A model generated the notes under the pieces. It was not told the origin of the DNA. It worked only from the letters and a program-made list of their open reading frames with translations, and ran no database searches. From the NCBI RefSeq assembly GCF_022637415.1, contig NZ_CP093340.1, positions 2,232,001 to 2,296,000 of the forward strand: a stretch of DNA of 64,000 nt, in the 5' to 3' direction. Of this stretch, positions 1 to 13,139 are shown in pieces. The position numbers were made by a program, and so were the translations under genes. The stretch is from Luteimonas sp. S4-F44. Lineage in GTDB: Bacteria > Pseudomonadota > Gammaproteobacteria > Xanthomonadales > Xanthomonadaceae. Position 1 is the first letter of the stretch. Each line of letters begins with the position of its first letter.

Positions 1-681
1 CTCGTCCAGTGGGCCAACGCCGCCGGCGCTCAGGTGACGATGCTGGAACTTGCCTCCCAGTTCCGCTGCAGCGGCTCGGATGGCTATATCGCATGGCTCG
101 ACGACTGGCTGGGCCTGCGCGAGACCGCTAACCCGGACTTCGACCGCGACACCTTCGACTTTCGCATCGTCGACTCCCCGGTCGAGTTGCACGATTTGAT
201 CCGCGAAAAGAACAAGGTCAACAACAAGTCGCGCGTTGTGGCGGGCTACTGCTGGGACTGGAACAGCAAGAAGAACCCGAACGCCGACGACATCGTGATC
301 CCGGAGTTCGGCTATCGCGCGCAGTGGAACCTGGACCGCGACGGCAGCCTCTGGATCGTGGCAGAAGATTCGGTCGAACAGGTCGGCTGCATCCACACCT
401 GCCAGGGCCTGGAGCTGGACTACGTCGGCGTGATCATCGGCCCGGACCTGCAATCATGCGACGGCCAGCTGGTCACCGCCCCCGAACATCGCTCGCGCAT
501 GGACCGCTCGATTCGCGGCTACAAGACGCTGATGAAGCAGGACCCCGAAGCCACGCGGGAGCGTGTGGATCGGATCATCCGCAACACGTACAAGACGCTG
601 ATGAGCCGGGGGATGAAAGGGTGCTACGTGTATGCGACGAATATCAATCGCATCCCGTATCAATTCCCCGATCTGCGCTGA
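1..681 (+). CDS. DUF2075-type helicase-like protein, 3' part only
   Basis: The reading frame is open from the first base of the window, so the gene begins upstream and only its C-terminal ~226 residues are seen. The segment HTCQGLELDYVGVIIGPDL, following a region rich in charged and aromatic residues, resembles the C-terminal part of DUF2075 proteins (P-loop DNA/RNA helicase-like proteins often found in mobile or defence-associated DNA). The Walker motifs would lie outside the window and cannot be checked. It is on the same strand as the hxs operon, 90 bp before hxsD, and shares its lower G+C. A functional link to hxs is not shown; the pairing may only reflect a shared accessory island. Confidence 0.7.
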   Translation, partial: LVQWANAAGAQVTMLELASQFRCSGSDGYIAWLDDWLGLRETANPDFDRDTFDFRIVDSPVELHDLIREKNKVNNKSRVVAGYCWDWNSKKNPNADDIVIPEFGYRAQWNLDRDGSLWIVAEDSVEQVGCIHTCQGLELDYVGVIIGPDLQSCDGQLVTAPEHRSRMDRSIRGYKTLMKQDPEATRERVDRIIRNTYKTLMSRGMKGCYVYATNINRIPYQFPDLR

Positions 682-771: not shown

Positions 772-1077
772 ATGGACAGCTCCACGATCCGGTTCGACCG
801 CGGTCTCTTCGGCGACGAAGTCATCGCGCGCACGGCACACCGCTATACGAATTTCTTCCACGTTGCCATCCACAGCAATGCTGACGAGATCGGCGTGACG
901 CTCACACCGCGTGCTGGTGTCGAGCGCCCCTCTGACTTGGAAGCCCGATTTCGGGACGACGCACTGGACGAGCGCCTGCGGCAATCTGTTCGCGAGGAGA
1001 CATGCGACCTGCACGCGGAACTGATCCGTGCAGCGCTACGCGAAGCGCTGCCGCGGCGCACGGATAGCACGCCATGA
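772..1077 (+). CDS. hxsD: His-Xaa-Ser system protein HxsD
   Basis: A 101-residue protein that opens the hxs operon. The N-terminal half looks like a small alpha/beta fold (AHRYTNFFHVAI). The C-terminal part has LDERLRQSVREET, which matches the conserved tail expected of HxsD, the small partner of the two His-Xaa-Ser radical SAM proteins. A G-rich ribosome-binding stretch (GGGGG) lies just before the ATG. The stop overlaps the hxsB start (ATGA), so the two are probably translationally coupled. The role of HxsD is not established. By size and context it may be a scaffold or substrate-recognition subunit; that is inference. Assignment rests on the motif and on the three recognisable neighbours. 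Confidence 0.85.
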   Translation: MDSSTIRFDRGLFGDEVIARTAHRYTNFFHVAIHSNADEIGVTLTPRAGVERPSDLEARFRDDALDERLRQSVREETCDLHAELIRAALREALPRRTDSTP

Positions 1078-2582
1078 AGTTTCGTCCCGCAGAGGCGTTT
1101 ACCGGCTCTGCTCAGAGCTACCGCCTGCTTCCTCTTCGCTTTCGTCGCCTCTCATGGGATCGCGACCGCGTGTTCGTCTCGTCGTTGGCGGGCGATTGGC
1201 TGATCATGAGTCGAGACGCATTTGATCAGTTCGTTAACCACGCGCTGGACATGCATGATCCTTTGCTGGCGGATTTGCAGTCGCGTCACCTCGCAGTGAT
1301 CGATCCGCAGCGCAGCACGCTTGCACCATTGCTAAGCCAGTATCGAACCCGGAAGTCCTACCTGTTCGGGGGGCCGGCGCTTCATATCTTCGTGGTGTCG
1401 CTGCGATGTCACCACACTTGCAACTATTGCCAAGTATCCCGTCAGCAGGCCTCGGCGACGGCCTTCGATCTAAATGAGTACTCCGCCAACCTTGCGGTCG
1501 AACGCCTGTTCGAGTGGCCGTCGCGCGAGCTGACCATCGAATTCCAGGGGGGAGAGCCACTACTCAATTTTGAGCAGGTGAGGGCTATCACCGAACGGAT
1601 CGTTGCGCTTAATGTCGTCGAGAAGCGTGCGTTGCGCTTTGTGCTGGCCTCTACCTTGCATGATCTCACCGATGCGCAATTGGCTTTTTTCCAGGAACAC
1701 CGCTTCAAACTCTCGACCTCGCTTGATGGCCCTGAGTGGCTACACAACGCAAATCGGCCAAGGCCAGAGCGCGACAGCTACCGGCGTACGGTCGAGGGCA
1801 TGGCGCGTGGCCGCAAGGCGCTGGGGGATGATGCTGTATCGGCACTGACCACACTGACCCGCCGCAGCCTTGAGGCGCCCGAAGCCATCATCGATGAGTA
1901 TCGGAAACTCGGCCTCCATTCCATCTCGTTGCGTCCGCTAAGCCCCTACGGCTTTGCCGCAAAGACGCGCGAGCGCAACGGCTACAGCACGGCGAATTAT
2001 CTTGCGTTCTACAGGCGAGCGCTGGAGCATCTGCTGGCGGTCAACCGCTCCGGCTACGTCATGGATGAGACGTTTGCCAGTTTGCTGCTCTCGCAGTTAC
2101 TTGGTCCTTTCGGGCACGGCTACGTGGACCTGCGCTCGCCTACAGGCGGGGGCTTCGGTGCGGTCATCTACGACTACGATGGTCAGGTGTACCCCTCCGA
2201 CGAAGCGCGCATGCTGGCGGCCATGGGGGATACCTCGTTCGCACTCGGTCACGTGGCTCAGTCAGTGAGTGATTGGTTGGCTTCACCGGCCATGGCACGC
2301 CTGATGGCTGCCGGGGTGTCCGAGTCACTGCCCACATGTAGCGATTGTGCCTACGTCCCGATGTGCGGCGCAGACCCCATCGAGCACTATGCCCGTCAGG
2401 GTGACGCCATTGGTCACCGCCCAACGAGCGACTTCTGCCAGCGGCAGATGGGAATGTTCGATTTTTTGCTGCAGCGCTATGAGTCCGCCGATACCGCGGA
2501 CCGGCGTGTGCTGGAAAGCTGGGCTTTCGGGAATATCAGTAGTCCCCACGAAGCAGAGGACGCACTCGATGCTGCCGCTTGA
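1074..2582 (+). CDS. hxsB: His-Xaa-Ser system radical SAM maturase HxsB
   Basis: A 502-residue radical SAM protein. The cluster motif CX3CX2C is at Cys112, Cys116 and Cys119 (RCHHTCNYCQ), followed by the glycine-rich QGGEPLLNF segment that contacts SAM. A SPASM-like C-terminal region carries further cysteines at about 422, 425, 431 and 455, suggesting auxiliary Fe-S clusters. The ~110 residues before the barrel may hold a substrate-binding domain. The ATG overlaps the hxsD stop, and the gene has no clear Shine-Dalgarno of its own, fitting coupled translation. It is one of two radical SAM proteins thought to modify HxsA post-translationally; the chemistry is unknown to me. G+C is visibly lower than in the chromosomal genes to the right. 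Confidence 0.92.
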   Translation: MKFRPAEAFTGSAQSYRLLPLRFRRLSWDRDRVFVSSLAGDWLIMSRDAFDQFVNHALDMHDPLLADLQSRHLAVIDPQRSTLAPLLSQYRTRKSYLFGGPALHIFVVSLRCHHTCNYCQVSRQQASATAFDLNEYSANLAVERLFEWPSRELTIEFQGGEPLLNFEQVRAITERIVALNVVEKRALRFVLASTLHDLTDAQLAFFQEHRFKLSTSLDGPEWLHNANRPRPERDSYRRTVEGMARGRKALGDDAVSALTTLTRRSLEAPEAIIDEYRKLGLHSISLRPLSPYGFAAKTRERNGYSTANYLAFYRRALEHLLAVNRSGYVMDETFASLLLSQLLGPFGHGYVDLRSPTGGGFGAVIYDYDGQVYPSDEARMLAAMGDTSFALGHVAQSVSDWLASPAMARLMAAGVSESLPTCSDCAYVPMCGADPIEHYARQGDAIGHRPTSDFCQRQMGMFDFLLQRYESADTADRRVLESWAFGNISSPHEAEDALDAAA

Positions 2583-3786
2583 AACCAAAGCTGCGGTGAC
2601 CGGCCTGACGAGTCCGCTACTAGTCAAGCTTGCTGGGCTACACGAACTCGCCGAGGACCAGTACCCGCTCGAGCGAATGGCTTTGGATTTGAGATCGATT
2701 CCCAAGGCCGCGATGACACCTGAACTTCTCGACCTACGATGGGGCGCACTCATCGGTACCCAGCCATGGGAGGACGTCGTCTCAGACGGTCTACTTGCGC
2801 AGGTCTGGTCGTCCGGACGTCCTGTGGCGGCGCTGCAAGGCGACAGCGCCATCGCCAAACCCGGCGACGTCCTTGAGCTAGACCCCTACCGTCAGCGCGC
2901 CGCCGTGCGCTATCGTCGCGGCGACAATGGCAATGTGCTTTTCGCTACCGAGCGCTGCAACAGCTATTGCCTGATGTGTTCCCAGCCGCCGCGCCAGGTT
3001 GAGGATGATTGGCGGGTTCAGCATCTTTGCGATCTGGTGGAGCTCATCGACGACACCGAGCCATCGCTGGCGATCAGCGGCGGGGAACCGACACTGTTGG
3101 GCGATGGTCTCGCTACTGTTGTAGCGAAGTGCTCGGAGCGCCTGCCCAGTACGCACTTACACGTACTGTCCAATGGTCGTCTTCTCGGCAGCACCGACCT
3201 CGCTAACCAGTTCGAGCGCATCCATCCCCGTTTGACCTGGGGTATACCACTCTATGGGGATCACTACGCCTTGCACGACTACGTGGTCCAGAGTGAGGGC
3301 GCATTCGCGCAGACCCTCCGCGGCCTGTATGCACTCGAGGCGGCCAAGCAACGCATCGAGATCCGCGTCGTACTAGTGAAACCATCGCTCGAACGTCTGG
3401 AGGCGCTTGCTCGCTTCATTCTTCGCAACCTTCCGTTTGTCGAGCATGTCGCGCTGATGGGCATCGAGCCGACCGGCTTTGCCAAGGCGCACCACGCGGC
3501 ACTCTGGGCAGACCCGGCCGACTACAGCGCGCAGCTGCAAGGTGCAGTGAATGCTTTGAGCCGTCGCGGAATGGATGTTTCGCTTTACAACCTGCCCTTA
3601 TGCACCATTCCGGAATCGCTTTGGCCGTTCGCGCGTCAAAGCATTTCCAACTGGAAGAACGATTACCTCGATGCATGTACCCCATGCGCTGTAAAGCATC
3701 GCTGCGGTGGCTTCTTCTCCTGGGTGACCCCCCAATGGACGAGCCGCGCAGTCATCCCCATTGAACTCGATCTGGAGGCCGCCTGA
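2569..3786 (+). CDS. hxsC: His-Xaa-Ser system radical SAM maturase HxsC
   Basis: A 405-residue radical SAM protein. I chose the ATG at 2569 because AGAGGA lies about 9 bases upstream; it overlaps the end of hxsB by 14 bases. The frame is open further upstream, but that part is shadowed by hxsB. The cluster motif CX3CX2C is at Cys130, Cys134 and Cys137 (ERCNSYCLMC), followed by ISGGEPTLLG. A C-terminal cysteine set at 370, 373 and 379 (CTPCAVKHRC) suggests at least one auxiliary cluster. The ~125 residues before the barrel are family-specific. HxsB and HxsC always occur together in this system, so each may do a different step or they may act as a heterodimer; this is inference. Confidence 0.9.
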   Translation: MLPLETKAAVTGLTSPLLVKLAGLHELAEDQYPLERMALDLRSIPKAAMTPELLDLRWGALIGTQPWEDVVSDGLLAQVWSSGRPVAALQGDSAIAKPGDVLELDPYRQRAAVRYRRGDNGNVLFATERCNSYCLMCSQPPRQVEDDWRVQHLCDLVELIDDTEPSLAISGGEPTLLGDGLATVVAKCSERLPSTHLHVLSNGRLLGSTDLANQFERIHPRLTWGIPLYGDHYALHDYVVQSEGAFAQTLRGLYALEAAKQRIEIRVVLVKPSLERLEALARFILRNLPFVEHVALMGIEPTGFAKAHHAALWADPADYSAQLQGAVNALSRRGMDVSLYNLPLCTIPESLWPFARQSISNWKNDYLDACTPCAVKHRCGGFFSWVTPQWTSRAVIPIELDLEAA

Positions 3787-4376
3787 TGTCTGCTGCTCTC
3801 ATCCTCACAGGCGGCGCACTAGGCGCCTTCGCGCCGGAGCCCCCACAACGCCCGACAGACCTGCTGCAACTTGCCGCCGCGGATGCCAAGTACTCGACCG
3901 TGTTGAGCTCATCGCTCAACGCCGGGCTCGACAACCTCTATGCAGGCCATCGAAGCCATAGTTCGCACCGGTCACACAGTTCGCACCGGTCGCATTCGTC
4001 AGGCTCGGGCAGTTCATACCGCTCCTATACTCCACCATCGACTTACCCGCCTCCGCCGCGGCCACCAACACCCACGCCAAGTCAGGTGAGACCACTCGAC
4101 GAGTCGCGCAACCCCCAATCCACAGGCACGGGAACCAACCTGAGTCCCGCAACGCTGCAGACCCAAGCGCCGCAGCGGAATGCTGAAGACCTGAGCATGC
4201 TGATAATGCGGGTGCAGGCCGCGCTCTTTTCTCGCAACTACGATCCAGGTGCGATTGACGGCGTGATGAGCCCCAAGACCCAAACGGCGCTGCGTGCGTT
4301 TCAGACCGCTTATGGCCTCAGGGTCACAGGTACGATGACGACCGAGACGCTGACGGCGTTGAGCGTGAGGCTGTAA
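3786..4376 (+). CDS. hxsA: His-Xaa-Ser repeat protein HxsA, putative modified substrate
   Basis: A 196-residue protein, the likely substrate of HxsB/HxsC. Residues 1-54 form a leader-like segment with a short hydrophobic start. Residues 55-72 are three exact HRSHSS repeats, followed by GSGSS and a Tyr/Pro-rich linker to about 130. Residues 134-196 are a peptidoglycan-binding domain of the PG_binding_1 type (DPGAIDGVMSPKTQTALRAF). The start overlaps the hxsC stop (TGATG), with GGAGG at 3774-3778 giving a good ribosome-binding site. An in-frame stop at 3762 excludes an upstream start. The binding domain implies an envelope location, yet the N-terminus has no basic residue before position 22, so it is a poor match to a classical Sec signal. 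Confidence 0.9.
   Translation: MSAALILTGGALGAFAPEPPQRPTDLLQLAAADAKYSTVLSSSLNAGLDNLYAGHRSHSSHRSHSSHRSHSSGSGSSYRSYTPPSTYPPPPRPPTPTPSQVRPLDESRNPQSTGTGTNLSPATLQTQAPQRNAEDLSMLIMRVQAALFSRNYDPGAIDGVMSPKTQTALRAFQTAYGLRVTGTMTTETLTALSVRL
3948..4001 (+). repeat. 18-bp tandem repeat coding for HRSHSS in hxsA
   Basis: Three consecutive 18-base units encode residues 55-72 of HxsA as HRSHSS each time. The units differ at synonymous positions (for example CAT/CAC, CGA/CGG and AGC/TCA/TCG), so the protein repeat is conserved more strictly than the DNA. This favours selection on the peptide over very recent duplication. Confidence 0.9.
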
Positions 4377-4473: not shown

Positions 4474-6666
4474 TCACAGGCGCCACATCCCCCACCGGCG
4501 CAGCCGCCCGCGCGTTTCCAGCAGGTCCACGGCCAGGTCGAGTTCGTCGTCGGCCAGCAACGGGCCGTCGCCGGCGATGGCGTAGCCCACCCAGCGGCCG
4601 CGGCCTTCATGCTTGGCGCGGTAGAGCGCGGCGTCGGCGATGCGCAGGCTCAGCGGCCAGTCGCCGCTGCGGCTGGAGTGCGCGGGAAACAGGCTGGCGC
4701 CCATCGAGACGCTGAGCGCAACGGTCCCCGTCGGGCGCACCAGTGGTTCGGCCTGCAGGCGTTCGCGCAGGCGGCGGAACAAGGCCGGGGCGTCGGCGAG
4801 TGTGCTCCCGGGGCAGATCCACAGGAATTCTTCGCCGCCCCAGCGGGCGATGACGTCGCCGGTGCGGCCGCAGTCGCGCAGGATGTCGCCCAGGTGCATC
4901 AGCGCGTGGTCGCCGCCTTCGTGGCCGTGCAGGTCGTTGACGCGCTTGAAGTGGTCGAGGTCGAGCAGTGCGACGAGCATCGGCGGCTGCGGCTGTCCCT
5001 GGGCCTGCGCGGCGACGCGTGTGTCGAGCCAGGTCTGCACGTAGCGGCGGTTGCGCAGGCCGGTCAGTGCGTCTTCTTCGCTCTGGCGGCGGATGGCGGC
5101 GTTGAGCTGTTCCAGTTCGCGGTGCTGGGCCTCGATCTCGACATTCTTACGGGCAAGTTCGGCATTGGCGTGACGGCGGCGGTGGCCTTCGCGCAGTTTC
5201 AGCACCACGAATGTGCCCAGCGCCAGCAAGGCAGCCAGCAGGCCGTAGACGATGCTGCGCTGGCGTTGTTCGCTGGTCTGCAGCGCGGCGAAGGCGACCT
5301 GTTCGTCGGCACGGGCGCGCTCGACGGCGGCCAGTTCGCTCTCCTTGCGGGCCAGGCCGATGGCCGATTCGAGTTCGGCGATACGGGTGCGCGATTCGAC
5401 GTTCACCGATTCGTCGTTGAGCGCCTTGTACTCGCGCATCAGCGCAAGCGCCTCGCGGTGACGGCCCAGCGCATCGAGGGTGTCGATCATGCGTGGGTAG
5501 AGCTCCAGCCGGCGGGGCACGTTGTCGGACTGGGCGAACAGTGCGCGCGAGCGCTCGAACGCGACCGCCGCGGCCTCGTGTTCGCCCAGGTCCGCATGCG
5601 CGGCGCCGATGTTGGAGTAGACGATGGCGGCCTCGCCGTTGTCGCCGGCGCCTTCGATCGCAGCGGCGGCTTCGCGCAACAGCGGCAGCGCCTCGCGCGG
5701 ACGCTCGAGCCGACGCAGCACGTGGGCCAGGTTGTTGAGCGCGGCCACCGGCGATGCGCCCTCGGCGCGGGCGCTGTCGAGTGCCTGGCGGTACAACGCC
5801 TCGGCCTGGCCCAGGCGGGCAGCGCCTTCATAGGCCGAGCCGAGATTGCTCAGAATCTCGGCGCGCGGCAGCCTGGGCCGGGGGTTGGCGTCATAGGCGG
5901 CCAGCGCGCGGCGGCCGTACTCGATGGCTTTGGGCCAATCCTGGGCGTAGACGAAGACGCCGGTGGCGTTGTGGAGCAAGGCCGGGTCCGCCGGACGGTT
6001 GAGCGCCTTGCCCACGCGCTCGACTTCCAGCAAGGCCTCGATCGCCTCCGGCATGCGGCCCTGCTGGGCGGAGATGATGAAGACGATCTGGTTGGCGTTG
6101 TACTCCACCAGGTGCGGGTGCGTGGGCACCTTCGACAGCGCGATGCGCGCCACGCGCAAGGCGTCGTCCTGCGCGCCCACGTTGTAGTAGGACGCGGCGA
6201 GTTGCCGCCACAGCTCGGCGAGACCGTGCTCGCCGCCGAGGCGGGTTTCCAGGCGCGCGGTCTCGTCCTCGAGCTCGGCAATGCGGGCCGCGTCGCGGGC
6301 CACCCAGATCGCACCGTTGAGCTGCTTGAGCAGCCGCAGCATCTGCTCGGGCGTCAGCGGCGCGCGGGTGCGCAGCGCACTGCCGATCTCGACCACGACA
6401 TCGCGTCGGCTGGCAGCGCCAGCCGCATCGATCAGGGCCAGGCCCAGGGCGATATCCGGGTCCGCCGATGCGTTCGCCTGCCATACCGGTTCTCCCATGC
6501 GCAGCGCGGTGGCCGGGTCGCGGGGCGTGAGTTCGGCGACGCAGGCCGGCACGTCCGCCGGTGTGGTGCAGGGGTCGGCAGTCACCGGCTCGGCGGCCAA
6601 CGAGGGGCCGGCGGCGGCGAGCAGCCACGGCAACAGCAACGAATGCGAACGGGCGCAATGCGACAT
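4474..6666 (-). CDS. TPR-GGDEF diguanylate cyclase, exported sensor part
   Basis: A 730-residue protein that should make cyclic di-GMP. It starts with a signal peptide (LLLPWLLAAAGPSLAA), then TPR repeats over about residues 60-430, a coiled coil, a membrane helix at about 472-491, a second short coiled coil, and a GGDEF domain at the C-terminus. The active-site loop reads GGEEF at about residue 608. An RTGD inhibitory-site motif lies five residues before it, so feedback inhibition by product is likely. The metal-binding LLDLDHFKRVND segment is present. The TPR part would be periplasmic and probably senses a protein or peptide; the signal is unknown. It points toward hxsA and lies convergent with it. 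Confidence 0.92.
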   Translation of the reverse strand: MSHCARSHSLLLPWLLAAAGPSLAAEPVTADPCTTPADVPACVAELTPRDPATALRMGEPVWQANASADPDIALGLALIDAAGAASRRDVVVEIGSALRTRAPLTPEQMLRLLKQLNGAIWVARDAARIAELEDETARLETRLGGEHGLAELWRQLAASYYNVGAQDDALRVARIALSKVPTHPHLVEYNANQIVFIISAQQGRMPEAIEALLEVERVGKALNRPADPALLHNATGVFVYAQDWPKAIEYGRRALAAYDANPRPRLPRAEILSNLGSAYEGAARLGQAEALYRQALDSARAEGASPVAALNNLAHVLRRLERPREALPLLREAAAAIEGAGDNGEAAIVYSNIGAAHADLGEHEAAAVAFERSRALFAQSDNVPRRLELYPRMIDTLDALGRHREALALMREYKALNDESVNVESRTRIAELESAIGLARKESELAAVERARADEQVAFAALQTSEQRQRSIVYGLLAALLALGTFVVLKLREGHRRRHANAELARKNVEIEAQHRELEQLNAAIRRQSEEDALTGLRNRRYVQTWLDTRVAAQAQGQPQPPMLVALLDLDHFKRVNDLHGHEGGDHALMHLGDILRDCGRTGDVIARWGGEEFLWICPGSTLADAPALFRRLRERLQAEPLVRPTGTVALSVSMGASLFPAHSSRSGDWPLSLRIADAALYRAKHEGRGRWVGYAIAGDGPLLADDELDLAVDLLETRGRLRRWGMWRL

Positions 6667-7107
6667 GGACAGGTCCCCAGCAAGACACTGGCGCGCTGGC
6701 GTTCCCTGGCCGATCGGCGCGCCGCCGTCGATCGCCCTCCCCGGTCTGCGACCGATGTCGCATCGTCCGTCCGGATTCTTCGTATCGGCAGCGGCTGCCC
6801 GATCTGTAGTGAAGATTACGTGATGATTGTCACGCGTGGGAAGTGAACTCGGTCACGAACGGCATGCGCCCAAGCCAGGTCCAATGGGCTGCCAATCCAA
6901 GTGCCGTGGGCTGTGCCAAGTGATGCAAGGGCCCGTGTTGGCGCGGCACTGCCATCGCCCTCCTTAGGCCGGGCTGATGCGGACCAGGCAATCGGCATTC
7001 GTCTGTGCGCATGGCGAGCTCGACGGCGCGCTAAGGCGTCAGGAGCGCTGCACGTTGGCGAACGTGCCACCGCATTGGGGCGATGCCAAGCTCGACGTCG
7101 CCTCGCC
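6667..7107. other. Intergenic region without a recognisable gene
   Basis: These 441 bases separate yaeQ from the diguanylate cyclase, both read leftward. No frame here has convincing protein features. The AT-richer stretch near 6810-6840 could hold the cyclase promoter. I see no tRNA, repeat or terminator that I can support. Confidence 0.5.
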
Positions 7108-7656
7108 CTACCCCGTCGGCGCCAGCCGCACCCGCGGCGTCAGCGCGACGCTGGCGCGGTCGCTCATCAGCTGCAGTTCGCCGTCCTGGATCATCGCGGT
7201 CAGGCGCATGCCCCGTTCCAGCAGGCCGACGGCGGCTTCGACATCGGCCGGGTCGAGGTCGAGGACGGTCAGGTTCTTGAGCCGCGCGAGCGCGGCGGGC
7301 TGCTTGCTCCACCAGATCTCGGCGCTGCCGCCGCTGTAGCTCACCACGACCACGCTGCGCGCGCGGGCGCAGGCCTTACGGATGCGGCTTTCATCGGGCT
7401 GGCCCAGATCGATCCACTGCTCGATGTCGCCGGTGTAGTCGCGCAGCCACAGGTCGGGTTCTTCGTCGTTGCTCAGGCCGCGGCCGAATTCCAGCCGCTC
7501 GTGGGCGTACAGCGCGAACGTAATCAGCCGCACCATCAGCCGGTTCGGAGTCTCGGACGGATGCTGGGCGAGCGTGAGGTTGTGCTCGGCGTAGTAATGC
7601 CGGTCCATGTCGCTGACCTGCAGTTCCAGCCGGTAGATCGTCGCGTTGGGCGCCAT
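7108..7656 (-). CDS. yaeQ: YaeQ family protein
   Basis: A 182-residue cytosolic protein with the features of the YaeQ family: the N-terminal strand pattern ATIYRLELQVSDMDRHYY, the segment RLMVRLITFALYAHERLEFG, and EEPDLWLRDYTGDIEQWIDLGQPDE. The fold is PD-(D/E)XK nuclease-like; E. coli YaeQ has been linked to suppression of rfaH loss, but its biochemical role is not settled. The length equals the family norm. It stands alone, with no close partner on its strand. Confidence 0.93.
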   Translation of the reverse strand: MAPNATIYRLELQVSDMDRHYYAEHNLTLAQHPSETPNRLMVRLITFALYAHERLEFGRGLSNDEEPDLWLRDYTGDIEQWIDLGQPDESRIRKACARARSVVVVSYSGGSAEIWWSKQPAALARLKNLTVLDLDPADVEAAVGLLERGMRLTAMIQDGELQLMSDRASVALTPRVRLAPTG

Positions 7657-7934
7657 GGGCGGGCCGTCTCGGAAGGTGCGCCATTGTAGGCGTGCACGGC
7701 GTGTGGCAACCGGTGCGCCTCACGATCACACGCCGGCCCCGGGGTCGCTGCGGCGGCGCTGCTGGCTGCGCCTGACAGCGAGCCTGACGTCGATACCCTG
7801 CATTGTGGTCTACTGCGCGCCAAGCGCCTGCCCCGGTCGTCGACAGCGCCACCCGGACGCATCCGTGTGAGGATATGACGGCGTGTGGCGCAAACACCGC
7901 CGCGCAGGCAACACCAGCCACAAAAGGGAATCGC

Positions 7935-8618
7935 ATGAAGCAGATCGGGTGTGTCGCCATCGCTGTGATCGCACTGCTGGGCGCCAGTGCGTCGGCCGAG
8001 CCCACGACGGCGCCCAAGCGCCCCACGGTCGAGCAGTTGCAGGGCCTGATCGTCGACCGGTCACCACAGACGCGGGTGGACGTGCCCGACAGCGAGCGCA
8101 TCACCGCACGCCGCATCGACATCGTGGACGACAAGGGCGTGATCCGCATGACTCTCTCCGGACAGACACCCGCGCCGATCATCGACGGCATCCAGTACAA
8201 ACGCGCGTTCAATGTGGCCGGCATGGTGTTGTACGACGACACGGGCAGTGAACGCGGTGGTTTCGGCACCGCCGATGTCAATGGCGGCATGGCAGTGCTC
8301 GCGCTGGATCATCCGGCGATGGATGCGATCGGCTGGCGGGTGTCGCCTGATGGCGACGTCCGGTTCTCGATCAACCAGGCCCCGCCGCCGATCCGCGAAC
8401 CCGCATTGGATAACAAGCTCGTACCGGGCGTGCAGGTCCCCACGCGGATCGAGATGCGCGTGGCCGCCGATGGCACGCCGGCGATCGCCCTGAGCGATGC
8501 GCAAGACCGGACCCGCCTGCGCTTGACCGTCACGCCGGAGGGCTACGGCGCCATCGAGTTTCTCGATGCGCAGGGCAAGGTGGTGCACACGCTGGCGCCG
8601 GAAGCCCAGACGCCTTAG
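7935..8618 (+). CDS. Secreted protein of unknown function
   Basis: A 227-residue protein beginning at 7935. The start is supported by AAAAGGGA about six bases upstream and by a classical signal peptide (MKQIGCVAIAVIALLGASASA). The frame is open further upstream, but that part lacks protein character. The mature part is beta-rich with repeated short units such as VDDKGVIRMTLSG, LYDDTGSERGGFGTAD and LSDAQDRTRLRLTV. These recall proteins with repeated beta-hairpins in which Asp-Gly turns alternate with hydrophobic strands. I do not recognise a named family. It converges on the next gene with only five bases between stops. Confidence 0.75.
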   Translation: MKQIGCVAIAVIALLGASASAEPTTAPKRPTVEQLQGLIVDRSPQTRVDVPDSERITARRIDIVDDKGVIRMTLSGQTPAPIIDGIQYKRAFNVAGMVLYDDTGSERGGFGTADVNGGMAVLALDHPAMDAIGWRVSPDGDVRFSINQAPPPIREPALDNKLVPGVQVPTRIEMRVAADGTPAIALSDAQDRTRLRLTVTPEGYGAIEFLDAQGKVVHTLAPEAQTP

Positions 8619-8623
8619 CCGCC

Positions 8624-9133
8624 TCAGCGATCCCGCGGGCTGTCGAGCGCTGCGGCGATGCGACCGGACAGCCAGGCGATGTCGGTTTGCGCCAGGCTCC
8701 GACCGAATGCGACGAGACCGGCGCCGATCAGTCCCAACACTACGCCCACCGGCAGCAGCAGCCAGGCGCGCGATGTTCCAGCGATCCCCTGCGCGATCAC
8801 CGCGCCCGTCCACACCACCGCGAAGCCGAACCAGAACGTGAGGAAGGCCCGCACGCTCCAGTGCATCGCGAAGCTGCCAGCGAGCACGCTGCCGGTGCCC
8901 GCAGGTTGGAAGCGACCGACGAACACCGGCTCGAAGGCGTTACGCGTGCGCGGGACGTGGCGCTCGAGCACGACCCGCCGTTCGGTGACCCGCCCGATCA
9001 TCACTTCCTCGCGCGGCGGCAGGATGCCGCGTCGCCGCACTCCGGCAGCCAGCCGGGCGACGGCGACCTCGGGCGGACAGGCACTCGCGAAGCGGGCGTC
9101 GCGAAGCGGTGTGGCAGGCGGTCGGGCGGACAT
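8624..9133 (-). CDS. Two-helix membrane protein of unknown function
   Basis: A 169-residue protein starting at ATG 9133. The N-terminal ~105 residues are soluble and rich in Arg and Pro, with an IGRVTERRVVLERHVPRTRN segment. Two membrane helices follow at about 108-126 (AFLTFWFGFAVVWTGAVIA) and 132-150 (AWLLLPVGVVLGLIGAGLV). It may belong to a DUF3592-like or related small membrane family, but I cannot assign it. It is followed on the other strand by a secreted protein; no functional link is evident. Confidence 0.6.
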   Translation of the reverse strand: MSARPPATPLRDARFASACPPEVAVARLAAGVRRRGILPPREEVMIGRVTERRVVLERHVPRTRNAFEPVFVGRFQPAGTGSVLAGSFAMHWSVRAFLTFWFGFAVVWTGAVIAQGIAGTSRAWLLLPVGVVLGLIGAGLVAFGRSLAQTDIAWLSGRIAAALDSPRDR

Positions 9134-9423
9134 GGCGCGGCAGTGGACAAACGGGCGGGCATCGTAGGGCACCGGCGCACAACCGGGCACGCGGAGGGCC
9201 GCCGTCTTGCGCGACCCGCCGCGTTCATGGCGCGCCTGTGTGCGGTACGCATCGTTCTGCGTCTGCTGCATCGTGTCGCATTGCTGCGCCGCCTGGGCGC
9301 CCCAACGTGCTGTGGACCGGACGCAGCCGCTTGCATCGCGACGCCGCCGACGCAGGGTCTCCTTGGACAGCTCCCCCTGCCTGTTGTGTCCACGAGCTGC
9401 CCATCCCTGCGAAGGAGACACCC

Positions 9424-10815
9424 ATGGCATTTGCGACCACCAATCCCTACACCGGCGAGACCGTCAAGACGTTCGAGGAGGCCACGCCTGCGCAGATCGA
9501 CGCGGCCGTCGGCCGCGCGCACGCTGCGTTCTTGCAGTGGCGCGAGACCTCGTTCGAGCAGCGTGCACAGGTGCTGCGCCGCGCCGCCGAGCTGCTGCGC
9601 GCCAAGCCGCGCGAGTTCGCGCAGATCCTGACCCTGGAGATGGGCAAGCTGATGGCCGAGGCCGAGGCCGAGGTCGAGCTGTGCGCGAAGATCCTCGACT
9701 ACTACGTCGAGCACGGCGCCAAGGCGATGGGCCCGCGCTACCTGCCCGCCGAGGGCTTCGGCGAGACCGACGTGCAACTGGTCAAGGAGCCGCTGGGCGT
9801 GCTGTTCGCGGTGGAGCCGTGGAATTTCCCGTTCTATCAGGTCATTCGCATCACCGCGCCGCAGGCGACCGCGGGCAACGCGATCGTGCTCAAGCACGCG
9901 GCCAATGTGCCGCAGTCGGCGCTGGCGATGGCGCAGTTGTTCCGCGATGCCGGTGCGCCGGACGGGCTGCTGACCAACCTGTTCGTCTCGCACGACAACG
10001 TCGAGCGCGTGATCGCCGACCCGCGCGTGCGCGGCGTGGCGCTGACCGGCAGCGAGCGTGCAGGCTCGGCAGTGGCGGCGCTGGCCGGCAAGTACATGAA
10101 GAAGAGCACGCTGGAGCTGGGCGGCGCCGATGCTTTCATCGTGCTGTCGGATGCAGACGTCGCGCAGGCCGCGAAGTGGGCGGTGTTCGGCCGCCACTGG
10201 AACGCCGGCCAAGTGTGCGTGTCGTCCAAGCGCATCATCGTCGAGGCACCGGTGTATGACGCGTTCCTCGAACATTACCGTGCCGGTGTGGCTGCGCTGC
10301 AGGCCGGCGACCCGATGGACCCGGCCACGACGCTGGCGCCGCTATCGTCGCAAGGGGCGCGCGACGGGCTGGCGCGGCAGGTCGAGGACGCGATCGCCAA
10401 CGGCGCCAAGGCCGAGACGCTGGGCGCGCCGGTGCCCACGCAGGGTGCGTTCTACCAGCCGACGCTGCTGACCGGCATCACCGCCGACAACCCGGCCTAC
10501 CGCACCGAGTTCTTCGGGCCGGTGAGCCAGGTCTATCGCGTCGCCGACGAGGACGAGGCGATCCGGCTGGCGAACGATTCTCCGTACGGTCTGGGCGGTT
10601 CGGTCTTCAGCCAGGACACCGAACGCGCCAAGCGCGTGGCCGCGCGGCTGGAGACCGGCATGGTCTACATCAACCAGCCCACCGGCGTGAAGGCGGATAT
10701 CCCCTTCGGCGGCGTCAAGAACTCGGGCTATGGCCATGAGTTGATCGACCTGGGATTGACGGAGTTCGTCAACGAGAAGGTCGTGGTGGTGACGGACATC
10801 CACGGGTCGTTCTGA
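9424..10815 (+). CDS. NAD(P)-dependent succinate-semialdehyde dehydrogenase family
   Basis: A 463-residue aldehyde dehydrogenase. The start at 9424 has AAGGAG about eight bases upstream. The family catalytic residues are visible: Cys265 in NAGQVCVSSK and Glu231 in TLELGGADAF. The cofactor-binding EPWNFPFYQ segment and the C-terminal PFGGVKNSGYG motif are present. Length and motifs fit the short succinate-semialdehyde dehydrogenases (Sad/GabD type), which oxidise succinate semialdehyde to succinate in 4-aminobutyrate breakdown. No aminotransferase gene is nearby, so the in vivo substrate is uncertain. Confidence 0.88.
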   Translation: MAFATTNPYTGETVKTFEEATPAQIDAAVGRAHAAFLQWRETSFEQRAQVLRRAAELLRAKPREFAQILTLEMGKLMAEAEAEVELCAKILDYYVEHGAKAMGPRYLPAEGFGETDVQLVKEPLGVLFAVEPWNFPFYQVIRITAPQATAGNAIVLKHAANVPQSALAMAQLFRDAGAPDGLLTNLFVSHDNVERVIADPRVRGVALTGSERAGSAVAALAGKYMKKSTLELGGADAFIVLSDADVAQAAKWAVFGRHWNAGQVCVSSKRIIVEAPVYDAFLEHYRAGVAALQAGDPMDPATTLAPLSSQGARDGLARQVEDAIANGAKAETLGAPVPTQGAFYQPTLLTGITADNPAYRTEFFGPVSQVYRVADEDEAIRLANDSPYGLGGSVFSQDTERAKRVAARLETGMVYINQPTGVKADIPFGGVKNSGYGHELIDLGLTEFVNEKVVVVTDIHGSF

Positions 10816-10825
10816 GGGGCGATTG

Positions 10826-10945
10826 CCCCCTCCCCAGCCCTCCCCCGGAAGCGGGGGAGGGAGCAGAGCATGCGATACGGAGGTTGAGGCGAGTGTGTGG
10901 TTGGCTTGCTCCCTCCCCCGGCCTCTCCTGCGTGCGGAGAAGAAA
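10826..10945. repeat. C/G-tract palindromic intergenic repeat
   Basis: Just after the dehydrogenase stop lies a 10-bp inverted repeat CCCTCCCCCG/CGGGGGAGGG (10838-10847 and 10852-10861). The motif CTCCCTCCCCCGG occurs again about 65 bases later. Such CCCTCCCC-type palindromes are common between convergent genes in Lysobacter- and Stenotrophomonas-like genomes. It may act as a transcription terminator or mRNA stabiliser for the two convergent genes here. Confidence 0.6.
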
Positions 10946-10950
10946 GTGGA

Positions 10951-11283
10951 TCAGTCGTCTTCGTCGTCCGACGTGGGCGGCAGGCCGCGCTCGGGCTGCG
11001 GCGGGATGTCGTCGCCGCCCTGGTCGCTCGCGGGCACGATTTCGCCGTAGTAGTGGCCGCTCTTGTCTTTGTAGACCGTGCCCGGGCTGTCGTAGGTCTC
11101 CGGGTCGAAGTGATCCAGGTGCACGACGACGGCGCCCGCCAGCACATACAGGTCCGGGTTCGTGTTCTTCGGGTTGAGGTACGACTTCCACTTCGCGATG
11201 CCTTTCTGCTTCTCGCTGTGCAGTGCGCTGATCGCGCGGTTGCTGGCGGTGGTGGCCTTCTTTTTTGTGTCGATGATCGGCAT
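10951..11283 (-). CDS. Small hypothetical protein
   Basis: A 110-residue protein without signal peptide or membrane helix. The N-terminus is lysine-rich (MPIIDTKKKATTASNRAIS), the middle has LNPKNTNPDLYVLAGAVVVHLDHFDPETYDSPG, and the C-terminus is strongly acidic (PTSDDEDD). The promoter-side sequence CAGGAGCAATCCC gives a good ribosome-binding site before the ATG, which supports expression. I do not recognise a family. Confidence 0.6.
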   Translation of the reverse strand: MPIIDTKKKATTASNRAISALHSEKQKGIAKWKSYLNPKNTNPDLYVLAGAVVVHLDHFDPETYDSPGTVYKDKSGHYYGEIVPASDQGGDDIPPQPERGLPPTSDDEDD

Positions 11284-11478
11284 GGGATTGCTCCTGGCTG
11301 GATGACGCGCCCAGACTGCAGCCGCACGCCGGCCAGGCCCATCGGGCCGGTGCTGATTCCGGGATATCTGGTGTGCTGAGGTCCGCCGTCTGATCGGGGC
11401 GAAGGCGCCGTGCAGCCGGCGTCGCCCTGCGCTCGCGCCATCGCGCGACAGGGATCGCTGCGGCCTCTTGCTGCCTGG

Positions 11479-12375
11479 CTACAGCCGCTGCATCAGCGCG
11501 GGAATCTCGTCACCGATTTCGCGGGCAAGGAAGCCGACCAGGCCCACGCGACGCGAGAGCCTTGCGCCCGCGCGGGCATGCAGGTGCACACCCCAGGCGG
11601 CGGCCTGTTCGGGCGCCGCGCCGCGAGCGACGAGACCAGCAATGAGGCCGGCAAGCACATCGCCCGAGCCCGATGTGCCCAGGCCCGCGCTGCCGGCGGT
11701 GTTGACCCACAGGCGGCCGTCAGGCGCGGCGATGGTGGTGGTCGGCCCTTTGAGCACCAGCACCACGCCCCAGTCGCGCGCATGGTCGCGGGCGATGGTC
11801 TGGGCGTCGGCGGAAATCGCATCGGCGTCGATGCCCAGCATGCCGGCCATTTCGCCGATGTGCGGCGTCATGATGGTCGCGCCCTGGCCCGCCCGGCGCT
11901 GCAACGTGCGCACGACATCAGCCTGCAAGGCGCCTGCGTCGAGTACGACCGGGCAGGCGACCGCATCGAGCACCGCAGCGACGACGCGTCGCGTGGCCGC
12001 GGTGCAGTCCATGCCGGGGCCGACCAGCACTGCGCCTGCGCTGCGGGCAGCGGCCGTGGCCTTGCGGCCGAGGTCGCGGATGGCGCCGTCGCGGGTACCC
12101 GGCACGCCCATGACCTTGGCCTCGGGCATCGCGATCGCCAGCGGCAGTGCGGCCTCGGCGACGGTGGCGACCTGCAGTTTGCCTGCGCCGGCACGCAGTG
12201 CGGCCAGGCTGGCCAACAGCACGGCGCCGGGAATCTGCACGCTGCCGCCGATCGCCAGCACACGACCGCGGTCCTCCTTGCTCTGCCCGCCCGACGGGTC
12301 GGGCAACGGCCAGGCGCGCAGCAGCGGCGCGGTCAGCCGGCGAACATTGGGGCGACGCGGCGCGCGCGGGGTCAT
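11479..12375 (-). CDS. nnrD: ADP-dependent NAD(P)H-hydrate dehydratase
   Basis: A 298-residue ribokinase-like protein that repairs hydrated NADH/NADPH. The ATP/ADP-binding and catalytic stretch TSGSGDVLAGLIAGLVARG is near the C-terminus. The N-terminal half has GRVLAIGGSVQIPGAVLLASLAALRAGAGKLQVAT, typical of the dehydratase domain. In many bacteria this domain is fused to an NnrE epimerase; here it stands alone with no epimerase next to it. Its ATG overlaps the end of the upstream phosphatase gene (ATGA), so the two form an operon. Confidence 0.9.
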   Translation of the reverse strand: MTPRAPRRPNVRRLTAPLLRAWPLPDPSGGQSKEDRGRVLAIGGSVQIPGAVLLASLAALRAGAGKLQVATVAEAALPLAIAMPEAKVMGVPGTRDGAIRDLGRKATAAARSAGAVLVGPGMDCTAATRRVVAAVLDAVACPVVLDAGALQADVVRTLQRRAGQGATIMTPHIGEMAGMLGIDADAISADAQTIARDHARDWGVVLVLKGPTTTIAAPDGRLWVNTAGSAGLGTSGSGDVLAGLIAGLVARGAAPEQAAAWGVHLHARAGARLSRRVGLVGFLAREIGDEIPALMQRL

Positions 12376-13139
12376 TTCGGTCCGGCCGGGGCGTCGGCGG
12401 CGTCGGTGACCGGTGCCCCGCCCGCCTCGACCGGCAGCGCGAAGTTCGCGACCTGCAGTTCGAAGCGCGCATCGCGCCAGTTGCGGTCGAGTGCGTACGC
12501 GGTGATCGAACAGTTGGGCACGTCGGCCTCACGGTCGATGGCGAGGATCTGCTGTTCGTCCATGCACTCGAGCAGATAACGGAAGCAGTTGACGATGACC
12601 TGATGGGCGACGATCAACACGCGCTCGCCGACATGGTCGCGGCGCAACACTTCGGTCACGCTGCGCAGGCGCAGCAGCACGTCGCACCAGCTTTCACCGC
12701 CCGGCGGACGGAAGTAGAACTTGCCGACCTGCGCGCGCTGCGCGGCCAGTTCGGGAAATGTGGCCTGGATGCCGGCCACGGTGTAGCGGTCGAGGATGCC
12801 AAATTCCTTTTCGCGCAGGCGCTCGTCGACGACGATGTCGGCGCGATCGATGCCCAGTGCATCGGCGACCGCATGGAGGGTCTGCTGAGCGCGGACGAAG
12901 GGCGAGGTCAGCAGCACGGTGGGACGTTCGTCGGCCGGCAGATCGGCGAACCACGCGGCCAGTGCTTTCGACTGGCGATGCCCGAGGTCCGAGAGCGGGG
13001 TGTCGGCGTCGCGGGTCTCGATGTCGATCAGATGGGTCTGCGCGAGTTCGGCTTCGTCGCGCGCGACATTGCCGGCACTTTGTCCATGCCGCACGATCCA
13101 CAGCCGGTCCGGCCAGTCGGTGTGACGAAGCCGCGCCAT
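12372..13139 (-). CDS. Histidine phosphatase (phosphoglycerate mutase-like) family protein
   Basis: A 255-residue cytosolic protein. The phosphohistidine motif is RHGQSAGN at about residues 17-24, and the second catalytic histidine lies in VLIVAHQVIVNCF. RLREKEFG and RPPGGESW complete the branch-specific motifs. The substrate cannot be named: this branch contains phosphoglycerate mutases and phosphatases of sugars and nucleotides. It is the first gene of a two-gene operon with nnrD, overlapping it by four bases, which suggests a metabolite-repair role. Confidence 0.88.
   Translation of the reverse strand: MARLRHTDWPDRLWIVRHGQSAGNVARDEAELAQTHLIDIETRDADTPLSDLGHRQSKALAAWFADLPADERPTVLLTSPFVRAQQTLHAVADALGIDRADIVVDERLREKEFGILDRYTVAGIQATFPELAAQRAQVGKFYFRPPGGESWCDVLLRLRSVTEVLRRDHVGERVLIVAHQVIVNCFRYLLECMDEQQILAIDREADVPNCSITAYALDRNWRDARFELQVANFALPVEAGGAPVTDAADAPAGPK

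Follow-up and report, generated by a model that had tools for sequence, protein, structure and literature searches.

The hxsDBCA operon of Luteimonas sp. S4-F44 encodes a His-Xaa-Ser repeat protein that is probably a substrate of its radical SAM maturases

INTRODUCTION

The His-Xaa-Ser (Hxs) system is widespread, yet the literature that we searched describes no product for it. We analyzed a complete hxs operon in a 64,000-nucleotide stretch of the Luteimonas sp. S4-F44 genome (3.69 Mb in one contig; NZ_CP093340.1, positions 2,232,001 to 2,296,000), called the window below. The system, comprising HxsA to HxsD, was reportedly described by Haft and Basu in 2011. The locus proved to be a genuine and typical member of this known family with an unsolved product, and the present analysis adds a predicted leader-binding domain on HxsB, the pattern of cluster cysteines in both maturases, and conservation of His and Ser at the protein level. 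HxsB, HxsC, or both very probably modify the His-Xaa-Ser (HxS) core of HxsA in some way. In the accessible part of one report, HxsB and HxsC are named putative maturases with a citation of Haft and Basu (PMC9062424), and in that of another, hxsABCD appears in a gene list beside integrating-conjugative-element and phage genes (PMC8446631). The initial annotation of this DNA held that the product has no settled structure or function, which agrees with the literature that could be searched; this was mostly without subscription papers, and a structure published elsewhere is possible.

RESULTS

Four overlapping plus-strand open reading frames at window positions 772 to 4376 form a tight hxsD-hxsB-hxsC-hxsA operon (Table 1), with overlaps of 4 nucleotides between hxsD and hxsB, 14 between hxsB and hxsC, and 1 between hxsC and hxsA. 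HxsB, HxsC, and HxsA each exceeded the curated NCBIfam cut-off of their family, and HxsD fell below its own, with an E value of 4.6e-8. Many relatives, but not every locus, have a protein alignable to HxsD at the corresponding position upstream of hxsB. The identity of HxsD is based on weak homology, position, and synteny, and the assignment to the Hxs system is carried by the other three genes. The matches and the gene order bear out the initial annotation of a complete operon for a ribosomally synthesized and post-translationally modified peptide (RiPP), including its two radical S-adenosylmethionine (SAM) proteins; of the four proteins that it proposed to search against the HxsA to HxsD models, all but HxsD passed the curated cut-off. 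Compared to the catalogued system, the window shares the D-B-C-A gene order, the HxS repeat, and the peptidoglycan-binding tail but differs in its divergent HxsD and in an HxsA that lacks a basic n-region. The nearest HxsB in the genome scan was that of Luteimonas sp. FCS-9 (92%), and none of the four operon genes encodes a protease or transporter.

Table 1. Coordinates of the hxs genes and their features in the window
Feature	Position	Strand	Description and basis
hxsD	772-1077	+	101-aa accessory protein; TIGR03976, 33.3 bits (cut-off, 50)
hxsB	1074-2582	+	Radical SAM maturase with N-terminal RRE-like domain; TIGR03978, 551 bits (cut-off, 370)
RRE-like domain of HxsB, residues about 13-88	1110-1337	+	Predicted; structure model and structural comparison
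HxsB radical SAM motif C112-x3-C116-x2-C119	1407-1430	+	Cys in 29/29 aligned HxsB
HxsB Asp376	2199-2201	+	Invariant; aligned with AnSME Asp277
HxsB auxiliary-cluster cysteines C422, C425, C431, C455	2337-2438	+	Cys in 29/29 aligned HxsB
hxsC	2569-3786	+	Second radical SAM maturase; TIGR03977, 376.3 bits (cut-off, 267.9)
HxsC radical SAM motif C130-x3-C134-x2-C137	2956-2979	+	Cys in 24/24 aligned HxsC
HxsC auxiliary-cluster cysteines C345, C370, C373, C379	3601-3705	+	Cys in 24/24 aligned HxsC
hxsA	3786-4376	+	Substrate protein, 196 aa; TIGR03979, 153.4 bits (cut-off, 121.65)
Pre-core element LNAGLDNLYAG, residues 44-54	3915-3947	+	Possible leader motif recognized by the RRE; present in many gammaproteobacterial substrates
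Six HxS tripeptides, residues 55-72	3948-4001	+	Likely modified core; repeat scans and alignment
PG_binding_1 domain, residues 142-192	4209-4361	+	PF01471, 49.4 bits (cut-off, 23)

The core of HxsA consists of six uninterrupted HxS units, and it is the sole run of at least three HxS in the six frames of the window. The scan covered all loci fetched via HxsB (designated by L numbers) apart from L001 and L002, which come from the window's own genome, and L063, whose radical SAM gene is only distantly related. An in-frame run of at least three HxS was present in the window and in 117 of the 118 fetched loci, the exception, L111, beginning inside hxsB. As a control, the genome contig loci longer than 12 kb contained 55 runs inside the hxs stretch (locus positions 5500 to 12500) and none in the other 548,563 bp. 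Five to eight units were found in 80 of 83 distinct repeat contexts (window plus loci), with six units in 45 of those; two of the three shorter contexts (L067 and L073) are truncated where the fetched sequence stops, and the third (L118) has interrupted blocks. At the genome level, all 23 hxsB-positive genomes gave an HxsA match, 20 of them over the cut-off, at a loose threshold that also gave matches in 5 of 14 control genomes, none over the cut-off.

We then compared 53 aligned substrates, namely, the window HxsA plus 52 drawn from the 81 that were complete and distinct; the omitted 29 were near-copies by eye, mostly from Pseudomonas and Stenotrophomonas. Eight columns were invariant (H55, S60, H61, S63, H64, S66, H67, and S69), each of which is a His or Ser belonging to an HxS unit, and S57, H58, and S72 were nearly so. 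Because substrates were chosen by the presence of at least three HxS units, this invariance stems partly from selection, which does not explain five units in register. The middle residue varied (S, 229; R, 155; Y, 49; A, 40; then others), and the alternation of R and S was not always kept, which indicates a tripeptide repeat unit, HxS. The proposal that HRSHSS repeats are the likely modification sites thus stands for the repeat as a target but not for the hexapeptide as its unit. Of 94 distinct runs of at least five units, 70 mixed TCN and AGY codons for the third-position Ser, which argues that Ser is conserved at the protein level and that the array is not a DNA repeat of recent origin.

The segment directly preceding the core follows a consensus, L-N-x(4,5)-N-[LIMV]-[YF]-A-[GA], common to many gammaproteobacterial substrates. 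Across the 53 aligned substrates, L44 was found in 27, N45 in 24, N50 in 20, Y52 in 20, and A53 in 45, and this segment is a candidate for a leader bound by a RiPP recognition element (RRE). Such an element is predicted at the N terminus of HxsB, which was modeled as three strands and three helices (beta3-alpha3). In a structural comparison, the four best rows for this region were RRE-bearing chains, and the first 24 rows held nine further RiPP-enzyme rows (three for McbBCD, two for ThcOx, two for CteB, one for TglHI, and one for a heterocyclase). With this predicted membership in the RRE fold, the pathway would count among the RRE-containing RiPP pathways. The Tig system performs cyclopropylglycine chemistry. 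TigE and CteB (8vpo and 5wgg) are radical SAM RiPP enzymes that resemble HxsB in having an N-terminal domain, structurally aligned to HxsB residues 13 to 99, followed by a radical SAM domain, and CteB differs in its thioether chemistry, as given in the PDB entry title. The HxsB profile match to CteB begins at CteB residue 53.

Each maturase carries three radical SAM cysteines and four auxiliary-cluster cysteines that were invariant in its alignment, and Asp376 of HxsB sits in an invariant D-E-x-R-M motif. HxsD was modeled from 29 sequences as beta-alpha-beta-beta-long alpha (predicted local distance difference test score, 90.9), without a significant match in the PDB. The order of these predicted elements is not RRE-like, and HxsD may be a scaffold or adaptor.

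The initial annotation considered a peptidoglycan-binding domain on the substrate unusual, a view that did not hold: the domain lies within the TIGR03979 model, was present in 32 of 53 scanned substrates, and is normal for HxsA. Some substrates stop right after the repeat (HxsA2 type; for example, L086 and L088). In others, from Opitutaceae, Bryobacterales, and Calothrix, a C-terminal tail without a Pfam match replaces the domain (L055, 6631 to 7407; L056, 1663 to 2382; L059, 6433 to 7152; and L089, 8827 to 9552). In the sequences compared, the constant parts of the substrate are the N terminus and the HxS core, with an exchangeable tail. In the window, 124 residues including the peptidoglycan-binding domain follow the core, and for this reason the release of a small product is not expected.

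DISCUSSION

In the model that we propose, HxsA would be made ribosomally and modified in the cytosol at each HxS tripeptide, with the segment just before the repeat bound by the RRE-like domain of HxsB. In the division of labor that we infer, the radical SAM center of HxsB would attack the beta carbon of the Ser side chain, HxsC would carry out a second or processive modification, and HxsD would play a small scaffold or adaptor role. The most likely product would be a row of crosslinks from the His imidazole to the C-beta of the Ser two residues on (i to i+2), giving three-residue cyclophanes, six of them here. Export would follow, and the tail domain would hold HxsA at the peptidoglycan. We hold this model as a whole at somewhat below an even chance. 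The His-Ser crosslink is our first choice of chemistry, tentatively, by analogy with i to i+2 precedents that involve His and Ser and given the Asp of HxsB aligned with that of AnSME. In the available portion of one source, these precedents are HaaB, C2(His)-Cb(Ala); YhhB, C2(His)-Cb(Arg); and MscB, C4(Phe)-Cb(Ser) (PMC11002830). Like these and the other triceptide enzymes in that portion (XncB and OscB), the Hxs maturases would be radical SAM RiPP enzymes that act on i to i+2 motifs, and known triceptide members use His or Ser as partners; unlike them, the Hxs system has two radical SAM enzymes and a protein with a wall-binding domain as its substrate. The dynobactin maturase, according to the same portion, also forms an imidazole crosslink between residues two apart (Tyr at i, His at i+2), but in the reversed order, through a C-N bond, and in a free antibiotic; HxsB scored 34.2 bits against its model (cut-off, 450).

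Two sets of results weigh against the proposed model. First, HxsB reached none of the cut-offs of the cyclophane maturases tried: YhhB (52.9 of 445 bits), AmcB (51.3 of 425), GrrM (48.2 of 310), FxsB (39.7 of 370), and XyeB (37.5 of 450). Second, we applied a crude Sec-signal rule of our own to every start codon 25 to 130 residues before the repeat; it accepted 65 of 98 distinct N termini and also rejected signals that look clear, for example, the one in L030. The window HxsA, with a hydrophobic stretch and no Lys or Arg ahead of it, failed this rule, as did its Luteimonas and Stenotrophomonas relatives L007, L008, L009, L011, L020, L021, L023, and L024. Other relatives of the same group, such as L003 and L006, satisfied it with an earlier start. 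Since no basic residue precedes the hydrophobic stretch, export of HxsA and the wall location that the initial annotation proposed for it are hypothetical in the window species.

If the model is true, it offers a chemistry open to testing, with as many as six -2.016-Da steps within residues 55 to 72, as well as a leader-binding domain, and it extends radical SAM peptide modification from released peptides to a structural cell-wall protein. A bolder form is doubtful, namely, that HxsB and HxsC link each His with the Ser at i+2 to form five to eight consecutive three-residue rings in a rigid ladder and that this wall-anchored poly-cyclophane serves as an envelope-altering host trait carried by plasmids and temperate phages. 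In the part of another source that was available, the His crosslink of noursin can create a copper-binding site (PMC10206099), which is at most a hint, by analogy, to Hxs function.

It is improbable that the HxS core instead becomes a redox or metal center, quinone-like or with oxidized imidazole, and that a MauG-like di-heme enzyme completes it in the periplasm. Genes for TIGR03982 and a MauG-like di-heme protein (TIGR03981) do follow hxsA in L093 (8792 to 10403; by annotation) and in L108 (11203 to 12962; TIGR03981, 531 bits; cut-off, 340); NCBI names TIGR03981 SAM_quin_mod, and the protein in L108 has a match to the MbnH family as well. At an E value of 1e-40, however, TIGR03981 was found in none of the 23 hxs-positive genomes, the window's own included, a weak negative in that the control matched nowhere. 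The sole metal-transport gene seen in 15 annotated plasmid and phage stretches, whose gene tables are incomplete, was chrA in L082.

Oxidation of each Ser to formylglycine by HxsB in the manner of AnSME, with aldehydes that may condense with neighboring side chains or wall amines, would produce the same mass change per residue as the crosslink, and we regard it as quite improbable. AnSME (4k37) is the best-scoring solved relative of HxsB after CteB (82.9 bits) and matches over most of the enzyme, and its Asp277, the catalytic base of Ser/Cys C-beta oxidation, aligns with the invariant Asp376 of HxsB. Ser would be the target. AnSME oxidizes one residue. Its cysteines 255, 261, 276, and 330 have no counterpart in HxsB, which has the extra RRE-like domain, lacks the full AnSME cluster cysteine set, and scored 62.5 bits against the AnSME family model (cut-off, 349.45). 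Formylglycine formation also leaves the strict His at i-2 unexplained.

We consider it unlikely, to a similarly strong degree, that the repeat undergoes epimerization to D-amino acids or another backbone change that leaves its mass unaltered. HxsB gave a weak profile match to the epimerase YydG (22.7 to 24 bits; E values, 1e-4 to 3e-4), but the match is limited to profile positions 98 to 167 of the radical SAM core, and the strict HxS register, in which x is free, points to a side-chain pair. A reading without modification, in which HxsA would simply be a wall protein rich in His and the enzymes would have another target, is very hard to credit. The searched literature characterizes no product, but HxsB alone picked the loci that carry the HxS run, HxsB has the RRE-like domain, and HxsA matches accompany hxsB in every positive genome. 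The His-Ser crosslink stays our preferred chemistry, and the present comparison narrows the likely chemistry to a form that mass spectrometry could resolve.

Distribution and genomic context

The distribution of hxs is patchy. Among 398 sampled Pseudomonadota genomes, the window's own among them, 15 carried TIGR03978 at an E value of 1e-60, and 14 of these exceeded the cut-off; the family gave 11 of 149 genomes and the genus 2 of the 6 listed, again with the window's own genome counted. HxsB relatives occurred in 387 of 72,556 plasmid records at an E value of 1e-40, 316 of them from Klebsiella and 306 predicted to be conjugative, and in 2 of 50,697 phage records at an E value of 1e-20. IMG/VR held 19 hxs loci. 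Eight flank proteins from five of these were compared with PHROGs and gave a terminase small subunit and a major head protein in L104, an endolysin and an Rz-like spanin in L108, a tail sheath and a head closure protein in L112, a terminase large subunit in L118, and only a weak scaffold match in L111. Because phage genes adjoin the operon in these viral contigs, hxs appears at times to be phage cargo, as if lysogenic in L104, L108, L112, and L118.

Several loci depart from the common arrangement. An IS1-like transposase adjoins hxsD in the single record inspected among the Klebsiella plasmids (L081 and relatives). The gene order is C-B rather than B-C in L080 and L116, and in L080 a longer HxS-rich substrate that matches HxsA3 follows B. 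The HxsB frame is shortened or split in the Pseudomonas loci L048, L054, and L062. A 5.4-kb contig labeled Paenibacillus dendritiformis (L004) encodes an HxsB 79 to 80% identical to that of the window and is probably contamination from a Luteimonas-like bacterium.

Directly upstream of hxsD, at window positions 1 to 681 (L002, 15607 to 17682), lies a gene for a 691-residue helicase of the Schlafen group 3 type. It was missing between matching flanks in L020, which marks it as a separate variable cassette. The helicase is preceded by a MazG-like stretch, recognized by eye, and gave weak PADLOC matches to PDC-S41, Nhi, and AbiO.
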